From NCBI GenBank assembly GCA_007753675.1, contig CP036432.1, forward strand, positions 3,260,394-3,324,393: a DNA stretch of 64,000 bases, given 5' to 3'. This document shows, piece by piece, positions 7,330 to 14,265 of the stretch. The notes under the pieces were generated by a model. The model saw only the letters and a list, made by a program, of their open reading frames with translations, did no database searches and was not told where the DNA came from. The stretch's first letter is position 1. Each line of letters begins with the position of its first letter. The translations under genes were made by a program, and so were the position numbers. This DNA is from Stieleria magnilauensis (GTDB taxonomy: Bacteria; Planctomycetota; Planctomycetia; Pirellulales; Pirellulaceae).

Positions 7330-7879
7330 AGTGGATACCTGGGTAACAATCCCGTCGGATCCGCAGTGACCGCGCCGGTGACCCGTCGCGTGATCATTTC
7401 GAAAGGACAATGACCATTCGACGCGTCGGAAACGGAAAGTCCTGCGGAACATTCATTTCTGACGAAGGCCAGTCCGACACGAAAACACCCGAACGTGGTT
7501 TGGACGCTCCGTGTAGGTAGCCCAGGAAGGGGCAGGCGGGGGCGGAAACCCGTGCTTACGGCGAGCTTCCACTCCCTTGACTCTACTGGGAAACCCAACC
7601 ATCGTCAACTTATTCGTTCAGCGATTCTGCCGGGGGGAGGGCGTTCACCTGAGCGTGTGAAAAACCAGTGCAAGCGGATGAGGGTGGAGGCCGCCTGGAA
7701 ACAACGGTGGGCTCGCGGGCAATGCCACTTACTTTGGCGCCAAACGGGGGCTTTTGTTAGCGGCAGGGCGCGAGCCCTCCGGTCTTTCAAGGTCAAACCG
7801 GACGGCTCGCGCCGTTCCGCTAAAAAAAGCTTCACAGCGTTGCCCGACGGGGTCGCGTCGTTCCTGGTCGCCGAACGGC
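7330..7879. other. intergenic region with palindromic element
   Basis: No credible gene. The two ORFs covering it (7495-8205 plus and 7605-7955 minus) are translations of repeat DNA or run into the real gene at 7880. The region lies between the start of the cytochrome/WD40 gene and the end of the dioxygenase gene, so any promoter for the former should be here. I see no convincing -35/-10 pair. The repeat at 7755-7845 is listed separately. Confidence 0.55.
7755..7845. repeat. dispersed palindromic element, intergenic copy
   Basis: Arms 7759-7783 and 7797-7821 are inverted repeats (22 of 25 positions pair). They are followed by an A-rich run and then GCTTCACAGCGTTGCCC. The same arms, A-run and flank occur inside the nucleoside phosphorylase gene at 12763-12850. 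On the minus strand both copies translate to a shared signature (GNAVK, then REPSG, then RRA.ALPLT), which will show up as false hypothetical proteins in automated annotation. Confidence 0.8.
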
Positions 7880-11336: not shown

Positions 11337-12176
11337 ATGCTTGATCTGTACGAAAAAATTGAAGAAGCCGCCGCGGTCATTCAAAATGCGTTTGCTCAGA
11401 CGCCCAAAGTTGCCCTCGTCCTGGGAACCGGGCTGGGTGGTTTGGTCGATCAAATCGATGTCAAAGCGTCGATTGAATATGGCGAGATCCCCCATTTCCC
11501 GACCTCCACCGCGACCGGTCACCGCGGACGGCTCGTCTGTGGATTTCTGGAAGGCGTGCCCGTCGTCGCGATGGAAGGACGGTTTCACATGTACGAGGGC
11601 TATCCGCTGAAGCAGATCACGTTGCCGATCCGAGTGTTCAAACGCATGGGCGCCGAATTGTTGATCGTCAGCAACGCCTGCGGCGGTTTGAACCCGTACT
11701 ACCAATCGGGCGAGATCATGGTGATCGATGATCAGATCAATTTGATGGGCGATAACCCGTTGATCGGCATCAACGATGATCGCTTGGGGCCTCGTTTTCC
11801 CGACATGTGTGAACCCTACGATCAGCAATGGATTGATCGCACGCTGGCATTGGCCCGCCGCGAAGACATTGGAATCCACCGCGGCGTCTTCGTTGCCGTC
11901 GCCGGTCCGAATCTTGAAACGCGGGCCGAATACCGGTTCCTACGCACGATCGGCGCCGATGTGGTCGGGATGAGTACAGTTCCCGAGACGATCGTGGCGG
12001 TGCACTGCGGGTTGAAGACAATCGGTTTGAGCGTGATCACGGACATGTGCCTGCCCGATTCGCTGCAGCCGGCCAATGTCGAAGAAATCATCGCGACGGC
12101 GAATCGCGCCGCACCCCAGTTGCTGAAAATCGTGTCCGGGATCGTGGCTGAAGCGGGGCAAACCCGGATCGCATGA
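11337..12176 (+). CDS. purine nucleoside phosphorylase, trimeric class (paralogue 1)
   Basis: 279 residues, the standard length of trimeric PNP/MTAP-family enzymes, which split purine nucleosides with phosphate into base and ribose-1-phosphate. Motifs in order: GTGLGG (phosphate loop), STATGHRG, GRFHMYEGY, SNACGG, DDQINLMG, GPNLETRAEYR, VVGMST, and VITDMC. The residue that contacts the purine ring, usually Asn (human Asn243), is Asp at 236. In methylthioadenosine phosphorylase Asp at this place goes with 6-aminopurine use, so an adenine-type preference is plausible. First gene of a four-gene operon; its stop overlaps the next start (ATGA at 12173-12176), which implies translational coupling. 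Confidence 0.9.
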   Translation: MLDLYEKIEEAAAVIQNAFAQTPKVALVLGTGLGGLVDQIDVKASIEYGEIPHFPTSTATGHRGRLVCGFLEGVPVVAMEGRFHMYEGYPLKQITLPIRVFKRMGAELLIVSNACGGLNPYYQSGEIMVIDDQINLMGDNPLIGINDDRLGPRFPDMCEPYDQQWIDRTLALARREDIGIHRGVFVAVAGPNLETRAEYRFLRTIGADVVGMSTVPETIVAVHCGLKTIGLSVITDMCLPDSLQPANVEEIIATANRAAPQLLKIVSGIVAEAGQTRIA

Positions 12177-13249
12177 GGGATCGCATGGAGGATCAAGCCG
12201 AATCGCCGGAAGCGGCGGTCGCGATGGCCGTGGCGATGTTGCGTGAGACCATTGGAACGGATTGGGACTATGGCAACGATATCGCCGGCCCGACTGTGAC
12301 GGCGATCGTCCTGGGTAGCGGTCTGGGTTCGCTGGCCGACAAAATCGAATCCCCCGTCATCGTGCCGTTCGGTGACATCCCCGGGTTCGCCCATTCCACC
12401 GCCAGCGGTCACCGTGGGCAGTTGGTGTTCGGCACGCTCGGCGGCGAACCGGTGGTTGCCATGGCCGGCCGTTTGCATCGCTACGAAGGCTGGTCCGACG
12501 ACCAGGTGACCTTTCCCATCCGGGTGATGCACGGGCTGGGGGCCAAACGTTTGATCGCCAGCAATGCGGCCGGTGGTGTCAATCCGAAGCTGGCGGTGGG
12601 CGACATCGTCGTCCTGTGCGACCAGATCAACTGGCTTCATCCGCGGCGGCAAATCGCGTTGCCGAAACGAACAGAGCAGAAAGAAACGGCGCCGAGCGCA
12701 ACCGAGGCAGCCCCTGGCAGTCACGCTGTGAAGCATTTATCCCCTGCGTTTGACGAGGTGTCAGCGGCAGGGCGCAAGCCCTCCGGTTCCTCATCGTTAC
12801 CGGAACACCGGAGGGCTCGCGTCCTACCGCAAAAAAATACTTCACCGCGTTACCCTGGCGGGTTGCCGATCGGTTTTCCCGCCGGACGGCGTGGTCAGAT
12901 TTTTGATCCGCAACTCGTCTCACTCGCACTGGCCGCCGCCCGAGAAGGGGGCTTTGTCGCCGTCCCAGGTACCTATCTGGCGACCCTGGGGCCGACCTAT
13001 GAAACCCGTGCCGAATACCGCATGATGCGGCGGATCGGAGCCGATGTGGTGGGAATGAGCACCGCAGGAGAGGTGTTAACGGCGGCGAATCTTGACATGT
13101 CCGTGCTCGCTTTGTCGATTGTCAGCAATGTGGCGGATCCCGACCGAGCGAAAGTCGCCGATCACGCGGAAGTGCTAGAGGCAGGGGACGCCGCGGCGGC
13201 TAAACTAGAGGGGATTGTTCGACGGATCCTTTCCGGCCACCGCGTTTGA
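12173..13249 (+). CDS. purine nucleoside phosphorylase with in-frame repeat insertion (paralogue 2)
   Basis: 358 residues, about 70 more than the family norm. It has the same motifs as its upstream neighbour: GSGLGS, STASGHRG, GRLHRYEGW, SNAAGG, CDQINWLHPR, GPTYETRAEYR, VVGMST. It keeps the usual purine-contacting Asn (N319, in SIVSN). The extra length is one block, residues about 159-230 (12647-12862), with no counterpart in paralogue 1. It begins right after DQINWLHPR and ends before LPIGFPAGRRG. The block is a palindromic repeat read in frame, so the protein may still fold with a large surface loop. An alternative start is the ATG at 12185. Probably a 6-oxopurine phosphorylase; activity of the interrupted enzyme is unproven. 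Confidence 0.85.
   Translation: MRDRMEDQAESPEAAVAMAVAMLRETIGTDWDYGNDIAGPTVTAIVLGSGLGSLADKIESPVIVPFGDIPGFAHSTASGHRGQLVFGTLGGEPVVAMAGRLHRYEGWSDDQVTFPIRVMHGLGAKRLIASNAAGGVNPKLAVGDIVVLCDQINWLHPRRQIALPKRTEQKETAPSATEAAPGSHAVKHLSPAFDEVSAAGRKPSGSSSLPEHRRARVLPQKNTSPRYPGGLPIGFPAGRRGQIFDPQLVSLALAAAREGGFVAVPGTYLATLGPTYETRAEYRMMRRIGADVVGMSTAGEVLTAANLDMSVLALSIVSNVADPDRAKVADHAEVLEAGDAAAAKLEGIVRRILSGHRV
12723..12852. repeat. dispersed palindromic element inserted in a coding sequence
   Basis: Inner arms 12763-12787 and 12807-12830 form an inverted repeat (about 21 of 24 pair). Outer arms are near 12723-12739 (containing GTGAAGCATTTA) and 12833-12850 (containing TACTTCACCGCGT). The copy at 7755-7845 shares the inner arms, the A-run and the right outer arm. 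The insertion in the gene is wider, 12647-12862, 216 bp or exactly 72 codons, with no stop in the phosphorylase frame. Confidence 0.8.
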
Positions 13250-13260
13250 TTGTCGTTTCG

Positions 13261-14265
13261 ATGCCGCACGTTCCCAAACCTCCTCAATCGGCGAAACCGC
13301 CAACGCCGCTGCGTTCCGCGCCGGCGGAGTCGGGTTCTCGCGAGACGTTGCCGAACAAGACGCTGCCTGCTGATGCACAGTCGGCTGAATCGCTGCCTGC
13401 TGATGCACTGCCCGTCGATGCACTGCCCGTCGATGCGCTGCCTGTCGATGCGCTGCCTGTCGGAGCGCTGTCCGATGCAGCGCCCCAGCTCGATTCGACC
13501 CACGATACGATGGTCGGGTTTGACCAGGAATCGGTCGACTCGACGAACCTGCCCGACATCGATCACGAATTCTCGATGCAGGAACTCTTTGATGCGGAAC
13601 TTCGCGAGGCGATTCGCTCGGTGCCGCTGCCAGGGGATGAAGAAAAATTACCGAGGGTCGAGATCCTGGGGGCGGACGGGCAACACGCGGCGCTGATGCG
13701 GATCGATCACCCGGTGAAGTTGCGTGTCCGCGGTTCACTGGGCGACTACGCGTTTGCGTACAACTCTCAAACGGTCATCAAGGTGTTCGGAAATGTCGGT
13801 CACGGGGTTGCCGAAGGCATGTCCAGCGGATCGATCCGGGTTCGCGGTCACGCCGGCCACGGTGCGGGAACCGCGATGACCGGCGGCACCCTGGGCATTT
13901 ATGGTTCGGCCGGGGATCGTACCGGGGGCGCGATGCGTGGCGGCGGACTGTTCGTTCGCGGCGACGTCGGCAACGATGTCGGACTCGGAGCCTTGGCGGG
14001 AACCATCGTGATCGGAGGCGACGCGGGCAACAACTTGGGCAATCCGCTCAGCAACGTTGCGGTGTTCATTCGGGGAAAGGCGGCGAGCTTGACTCCCGGC
14101 GTCACCGAGGCTCCGCTGCGAAAGAAGCAGGAGGTCCAACTGGGATTGCTGCTCATCAGCGCGGGGATCCGCGGCGACGCGACAGACTTTCGTCGCATCG
14201 TCCCGATCGCAAAACTGGCGGCGGAAAATGCAGCCCGCGGCGAAGTGGTTCCCAATTGGCGATAG
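13261..14265 (+). CDS. GXGXG-domain protein (glutamate synthase alpha C-terminal-like)
   Basis: 334 residues from the ATG at 13261; the frame opens at a TTG at 13246 that overlaps the previous stop, but the ATG is the more usual choice. The C-terminal half is a right-handed GXGXG beta-helix: IKVFGNVGHG, IRVRGHAGHGAG, LGIYGSAGDRTGG, LFVRGDVGNDVG, IVIGGDAGNNLG. This is the fold of the last domain of glutamate synthase large chain and of FwdC/MgsB/GlxC-type subunits, where it is structural rather than catalytic. The N-terminal 100 residues are a proline/alanine-rich linker with tandem pentapeptides, then an acidic stretch. It sits 11 bp after the phosphorylase gene and 18 bp before the barrel protein, so the two are likely partner subunits. 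Confidence 0.78.
   Translation: MPHVPKPPQSAKPPTPLRSAPAESGSRETLPNKTLPADAQSAESLPADALPVDALPVDALPVDALPVGALSDAAPQLDSTHDTMVGFDQESVDSTNLPDIDHEFSMQELFDAELREAIRSVPLPGDEEKLPRVEILGADGQHAALMRIDHPVKLRVRGSLGDYAFAYNSQTVIKVFGNVGHGVAEGMSSGSIRVRGHAGHGAGTAMTGGTLGIYGSAGDRTGGAMRGGGLFVRGDVGNDVGLGALAGTIVIGGDAGNNLGNPLSNVAVFIRGKAASLTPGVTEAPLRKKQEVQLGLLLISAGIRGDATDFRRIVPIAKLAAENAARGEVVPNWR
13363..13467 (+). repeat. 15-bp tandem repeat (seven units) in the GXGXG gene
   Basis: Seven consecutive 15-bp units of the type CTGCCCGTCGATGCA, with the second unit diverged, encode a flexible linker of LPVDA/LPADA pentapeptides. Four central units (13408-13467) differ by only a few bases, so the array is young or kept uniform and could vary in copy number between strains. 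Confidence 0.85.

Follow-up and report, generated by a model that had tools for sequence, protein, structure and literature searches.

The in-frame capture of mobile palindromes by genes is best known from Rickettsia, whose palindromic elements (RPEs) have equivalents in Wolbachia, and from a few other MITEs. In the available text of PMC10969869 and PMC2229807, RPEs are described as palindromes of 105-146 bp that lie in frame in unrelated genes, many of them conserved, traits that make them resemble the element described below; in the one tested case given there, an RPE in guanylate kinase, the enzyme was active with an altered substrate affinity (PMC2229807). Further likenesses, in the portions of PMC2229807, PMC5896051 and PMC10969869 that treat them, are offered by ERIC and the 107-bp Correia element, which are small and non-autonomous, possess terminal repeats and contain open frames that form in-frame fusions with host genes, and by Coxiella QMITE1, copies of which contain ORFs and overlap annotated genes. 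GTAG/CGTC-tagged REPs are likewise abundant palindromes, and the accessible part of PMC3733652 reports members from Planctomycetes. A 2024 review, in the part available, judges that proteins could conceivably evolve this way in other prokaryotes too (PMC10969869), and among the papers listed in a literature search that covered few subscription papers, none dealt with the present element, with Rhodopirellula or Stieleria MITEs, or with palindromes within genes of Planctomycetes.

Here we analyzed a 64,000-nucleotide stretch of DNA (the window, G000:C1:3260394-3324393) from the single-contig 10.77-Mb genome of the planctomycete Stieleria magnilauensis (G000), in which two purine nucleoside phosphorylase paralogues, PNP1 and PNP2, lie in tandem, the ATG of PNP2 overlapping the stop of PNP1 (Table 1). 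A preliminary description of the window had read PNP2 as a nucleoside phosphorylase gene with exactly 72 extra codons at one point, which keep the frame, contain no stop and hold an inverted repeat found also between genes at 7755-7845, and had likened the insert to RPEs. Pfam, NCBIfam and PDB matches confirm the host gene, and the ORF is open to its end with no stop or frameshift anywhere. The 24-nt inverted repeat of PNP2, 88% complementary, is indeed common with 7760-7783/7797-7820 (4 matches, compared to 0 in 100 shuffles), a copy that proved incomplete. Insertion at a single point also held, while the size was revised: the insertion proper comprises 141 bp, or 47 codons, made up of a 132-bp element and a 9-bp duplication, and the remaining ~25 codons are an older linker. 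With high confidence we read this insertion as a 132-bp MITE, most likely moved by an IS4-like transposase, which would have entered the linker of PNP2 in the G000 lineage and added 47 codons in frame.

Table 1. Coordinates of the features discussed; positions are those of the window unless a contig is named.
Feature	Position	Strand	Basis or remark
PNP1, upstream paralogue without the insertion	11337-12176	+	279 aa
PNP2, second purine nucleoside phosphorylase gene, carries the insertion	12173-13249	+	ORF of 358 aa; phosphorylase matches
Variable linker of PNP2, older than the insertion, start of the 72-codon block	12647-12711	+	homologous in the three nearest congeners
9-bp target duplication, left copy CCCTGGCAG	12712-12720	+	flank comparison
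MITE copy, 132 bp, in the PNP2 frame as residues 183-227	12721-12852	+	alignment of genomic copies
9-bp target duplication, right copy CCCTGGCGG	12853-12861	+	flank comparison
Inner palindrome, left arm	12764-12787	+	inverted-repeat analysis
Inner palindrome, right arm	12807-12830	+	inverted-repeat analysis
Partial copy, right end of the element only, outside called genes	7755-7842	+	matches model positions 39-132 only, on its strand
Wzy_C/O-antigen-ligase-like gene with an element copy	G000:C1:2904009-2906396		Pfam E = 1.1e-18

DNA alignment showed that the three nearest orthologues (G006, G003 and G001) lack the 141 bp and possess the preceding linker, to which ~25 codons of the 72-codon block are homologous. 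In the protein alignment the 47-residue block was missing from every PNP2 orthologue aligned, 13 congeneric ones and four of other genera; the orthologue comparison suggested in the preliminary description thus points to a lineage-specific insertion, whereas an ancestral domain, the alternative raised there, would appear in all of them. The linker itself varies in length and sequence among the aligned orthologues, that of G009 harboring a short repeat of its own. At the place of insertion PNP1 carries the segment NPLIGINDDRLGPRFPDM and PNP2 orthologues have the variable linker instead, which argues that the site was probably permissive before the element arrived.

The two copies of the PNP2 target duplication are identical at 8 of 9 bases, and the terminal repeats of the element between them carry 2 and 3 mismatches. 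The RNA hairpin of this element gave a z of -6.09, and an Rfam search at E up to 1 returned six matches, all of them to microRNA models and far below the gathering score. Relative to the family consensus, 10 codons of the PNP2 copy differ, all nonsynonymously and none synonymously; we do not claim positive selection, as the copy belongs to a divergent subfamily, and part of its divergence looks like that of the subfamily, common to L062, L064, L065 and L086. When 12 random substitutions were introduced, the PNP2 frame was still open in 64% of trials.

A BLAST search of G000 with the block gave at least 82 matches, and the 47-codon insert recurs at a minimum of 29 other places in this genome. 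We aligned 30 copies (L061-L090), which are the best matches to the PNP2 copy and not a random sample, and found 24 to be 132 bp long, five 133 bp and one 131 bp, with no transposase gene. The 132-bp consensus harbors terminal inverted repeats CAACGCTGTGAAGCATT of at least 17 bp, with consensus ends CAACGCTGTGAAGCATTT on both strands and no TA at the termini; up to two mismatches to this repeat were seen at the left end in 26 copies, at the right end in 25 and at both in 23. Compared in a fixed register, the flanking 9-mers differed by 0-1 mismatch in 16 of the 30 copies (8 exact), compared with 1.6% when left and right flanks of different copies were paired, and by two or more in the same fixed register in the other 14, a one-base shift bringing some of these into alignment. 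The duplications often take the form CCC...GGG. Element-sized end pairs in other genera, 22 once L255 (at a contig end), repeats of one place and long combinations joining different elements were left out, showed 8 exact 9-bp duplications, with lengths from 132 to 343 bp, 4 with one mismatch and 10 with three or more.

The core palindrome was also seen in tandem arrays, at G000:C1:2292001-2292717, 161282-161576, 4719343-4719703 and 1652428-1652608, with spacings of ~84, 93, 43 and 33 bp, and its 16-mer core, allowing up to 1 mismatch, has 686 matches across the G000 genome.

Because 132 and 9 add up to 141, which is divisible by three, an unmutated copy leaves the frame downstream unshifted, and with three of the six consensus frames open, roughly half of the insertions within genes should read through. 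Three or more open frames were found in 15% of 5000 dinucleotide shuffles of the consensus, and so this property is helpful, not remarkable, and weak evidence alone. PNP2 uses forward frame 2, and the two further genes described below both use reverse frame 1.

Counting matches to the 17-mer terminal repeat with up to 1 mismatch, we obtained 147 in G000, 138 in G001, 118 in G003, 187 in G006, 15 in G004 and one in G010, and none in the other 8 of the 14 genus genomes. At least one match was present in 34 of 149 genomes drawn from the family, with high counts in G140 (120), G086 (95), G117 (63), G026 (59) and G177 (52). A phylum-wide draw of 392 genomes yielded matches in 8, namely 147 in G000, 2 in G075 and single, chance-like ones in six; a reversed pattern also gave single matches. 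The element is thus found in Pirellulaceae, and elsewhere in the phylum draw it does not rise above the level of chance.

A candidate mover comes from other genera. Among IS loci from eight genomes, G117:C576 bears an element of 1527 bp, whose 20-bp ends CTACGCCGTGAACCCTATTT are perfect and which the duplication CGTGCCACA flanks on both sides; it encodes a 493-aa DDE_Tnp_1 transposase with an IS4-like score of 106 bits, below the NCBIfam cut-off of 115. Relatives of this transposase (the L380 group) occur in 14 of the 149 family genomes at E <= 1e-30, and none was found in G000 at this threshold, in a draw outside which G001, G003 and G006 lie. For 15 of 29 retrieved loci, several of them near-identical G131 copies, we recovered ends with 9-bp duplications (0-1 mismatch), of which 14 begin C(A/T)ACGC(C/T)G and one GAACGCCG; the closest set, 9 copies in G131, shows 3 mismatches to the MITE end over 18 positions, and G131 itself had no MITE terminal-repeat match in the 17-mer scan of the family draw. 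The targets of L434 (CCCTGCGGG) and of L437 (CCCTCTGGG/CCCCCTGGG) are like those of the MITE, such as CCCTTCGGG, and the genome of L437, G086, is rich in MITE ends. Judging from these other genera, an IS4-like transposase likely moved the MITE.

Terminal-repeat pairs 0.3-3.5 kb apart with a 9-bp duplication were seen neither in the window nor in 30 end-variant loci or 60 sampled 20-kb stretches. Candidates for a parent IS were rejected in G000 itself, where 12 stretches around DDE_Tnp_1 matches had other ends or none recoverable, and in its relatives, where seven G001 stretches and one of G006 gave the same outcome; PF00872 (IS256-type) loci had no matching ends, and L387 was left out of the IS-end analysis as a contig-end artefact with an empty flank. 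Among 25 of 48 ORFs adjoining lone terminal repeats in other genomes, and among 25 of 43 Pfam families listed for them, there was no transposase. Two further observations concern IS elements in general: DDE_Tnp_1 matches number 99 in G000, 29 in G001 and 2 in G006, an uneven IS load among close relatives, and in G131 ten loci such as L432 hold ten IS4-like copies that are each aligned through one TAA codon, with 9-bp duplications recovered in 9 of the 10, 8 of them exact.

To assess how often copies lie within genes, we sampled 1.2 Mb of G000 as 60 stretches of 20 kb at even spacing, 83.6% of which is covered by a simple codon-usage gene caller; counting partial copies and core palindromes, this sample contains 37 element loci. 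One of these was wholly inside a called gene, compared to 73.7% of random 130-bp windows, and three more overlapped a gene edge, which supplies for this sample the count inside and between genes that the preliminary description had proposed. The sole in-gene locus, L168:16621, is 13 codons from the called start, possibly outside the true gene. Four of the 37 had come out of an earlier frame-based screen as candidates, each lying either close to the end of an ORF or in one of very short length, and among the 30 full copies two, those in PNP2 and in the Wzy-like gene of Table 1, are clearly mid-gene. Therefore, selection or target choice keeps the element mostly outside genes, PNP2 being an exception; such depletion would mean that few sites tolerate it, and the tolerated ones in PNP2 and the Wzy-like gene are variable linkers.

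Several apparent in-gene copies (L063, L085/L164, L089, L262, L263, L264, L265 and L266) were rejected, as each sits at the 5' margin of a stop-to-stop ORF with an upstream coding score near zero or negative, except for L089 (0.47, over only 17 codons). L166/L270, a doubtful case, is a weak, diverged match (40 bits) covering residues 56-98 of a 1051-codon ORF with an upstream score of 0.11, and is not among the loci that the gene caller puts within genes. At L164:11642-11772 (and in L085) a MITE copy immediately precedes the LEPRIVLNAT motif in a very large predicted protein; an in-frame ATG within this copy might supply the start codon.

Altogether, in-frame insertions of the element were found in three genes of a four-species group (G000, G001, G003 and G006), PNP2, the Wzy-like gene and a gene we term gene 3, each with empty sites in relatives; the latter two were found through element matches with long open frames and not by a complete survey. 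In the Wzy-like gene the copy is in the opposite orientation, in frame and flanked by an exact 9-bp duplication. G003 and G006 match this protein up to residue 502 and from residue 550, leaving the 47 between unmatched, and the distance between two fixed anchors is 94 residues in G000, 47 in G006 and 52 in G003, that is, 47 and 42 fewer. The same linker in G001 (L253, G001:C1:3769000-3772800) holds a different in-frame insert, a rearranged core palindrome and not the MITE, whose arms match window positions 7757-7784 (28/28) and 7792-7822 (30/31). The product of gene 3 had no Pfam or NCBIfam match. G001, G003 and G006 share one insertion site for its element, which is in frame in all three species, and 47 codons are missing there in G000, G002 and G013. 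The dN/dS of the element codons (0.34-0.46) is similar to that of the rest of the gene (0.28-0.42), in three pairwise comparisons that are non-independent and span 44 codons each. A three-gene tree separated G000, G003 and G006 from G001 and two outgroups (support 100) and placed G000 beside G006 (84), and thus within the insert-bearing group, so that the absence of the gene 3 insert from G000 represents a precise loss or a replacement.

NCBIfam and PDB sequence searches break the phosphorylase match of PNP2 in two around the block, and Pfam joins it across the block as one stretch. In the predicted structure, pLDDT reaches at least 90 at 184 of 358 residues and falls below 50 in a loop formed by residues 158-235, in which the insert would lie; a fold search with this model returned PNPs as top matches, 4m1e first. 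With the insert left out, six pairwise comparisons among the four nearest species gave PNP2 dN/dS values of 0.13-0.30 (0.26 for G000 versus G006), and so PNP2 outside the insert evolves under constraint, which mostly reflects the time before the insertion. The gene after PNP2 (13246-14265) carries ALPVD-type tandem repeats near its N-terminus, another in-frame coding repeat.

We propose that a non-autonomous 132-bp DNA transposon, most likely by means of an IS4-like transposase, entered PNP2 in the G000 lineage, its target being a linker, variable and probably disordered, in one of two tandem PNP paralogues. With the 9 bp duplicated in the process, PNP2 would have been lengthened by 141 bp, or 47 codons, with the downstream frame kept, and the element, placed so that one of its three open frames is read, would be translated as an unstructured extension between the halves of the phosphorylase fold. 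That the block is an ancestral PNP loop lost in other lineages is exceedingly improbable: the ~25 linker codons are older and common to the three nearest species, as such a history would have it, but the other 47 are missing from every congener and every other-genus orthologue aligned, and they sit within a near-perfect 9-bp duplication as part of a sequence dispersed through the genome. A true member of the RPE class, or a REP/REPIN moved by RAYT, in place of a DDE-type MITE, would share the palindromic form, the 132-bp length, the open frames and the in-frame presence in unrelated genes, and the smaller core palindromes are found arrayed in tandem as well; this reading is very unlikely given the 9-bp target duplications, the consensus terminal repeats of 17 bp or more and the IS4-like elements whose ends, and for some also whose targets, are similar.

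The fate of PNP2 may be viewed in two further ways. The insertion may have inactivated the gene, or be doing so, its open frame being transient in a nascent pseudogene whose function PNP1 covers; a complete paralogue directly upstream, a very stable hairpin and the absence of the NPLIGINDDRLGPRFPDM segment from PNP2 orthologues are consistent with this, but the reading frame is intact, PNP2 is present in the 13 compared congeners and its dN/dS is low in all six comparisons, albeit averaged over pre-insertion time, and we regard inactivation as unlikely. We regard as quite unlikely that the inserts were recruited, the added peptide being useful and kept by selection. The gene 3 insert, in frame in three species and with a dN/dS close to that of its surroundings, fits such recruitment, yet the three comparisons behind these values are non-independent and cover only 44 codons, the insert is absent from G000 though the tree nests this genome within the insert-bearing group, and the PNP2 insert exhibits no visible constraint. 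Returning to the MITE insertion into a permissive linker, we infer that the PNP2 protein is made with its insert, which is presumably tolerated as neutral rather than useful. A broader view, that the MITE repeatedly supplies proteins with ready-made disordered linkers, some of which are then kept for useful reasons, is tentative and has a modest chance of being correct; it draws on the gene 3 insert having been kept in three species and on the Wzy-like linker having been struck by two different palindromes in two species.

Planctomycetes of the Stieleria group are free-living, and if this broader view is true, RPE-style tinkering with proteins would here be carried out in free-living bacteria, and in a planctomycete, by a transposon with an identifiable mover. 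With target duplications, empty sites and candidate autonomous relatives at hand, one can read directly how old each insertion is, which frame it uses and what became of it. We consider the PNP2 finding moderately surprising: its anatomy and comparative evidence are unusually clean, and its kind is established.

REPs and REPINs moved by RAYT are not known to make target duplications, and differ in this from the present element with its 9-bp duplications. Set apart by description, GTAG/CGTC-tagged REPs are units of 20-40 bp, as opposed to 132 bp with a target duplication. The Pirellulaceae IS4-like elements (L380, L432, L434 and L437) resemble the MITE in their C(A/T)ACGC(C/T)G ends and 9-bp target duplications, a likeness assessed at the ends only, and differ in being ~1.5 kb long with a DDE transposase gene of ~500 codons. 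Compared by description, the ORF-bearing MITEs differ from this Pirellulaceae element and its 9-bp, often CCC...GGG, duplications, and several of the MITEs tabulated in the available text of PMC2229807 have TA termini, which it lacks. As for RPEs, nearly half lie within ORFs according to the accessible part of PMC10969869, in contrast to 1 of the 37 loci sampled here, and their target duplication is entered as a question mark in the part of the 2007 review available (PMC2229807), where here it is a clear 9 bp; moreover, this element has IS4-like elements with similar ends, and its host genome measures 10.8 Mb. The RPE likeness drawn in the preliminary description accordingly survives as regards a dispersed palindromic repeat that is captured in frame and behaves like an RPE, and not as regards MITE anatomy and the few copies in genes. 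On these grounds we class the element as a new family of MITEs, a kind already known, and not as an RPE; set apart from RPEs by description, it appears to work as they do, and RPEs are its closest functional analogue.
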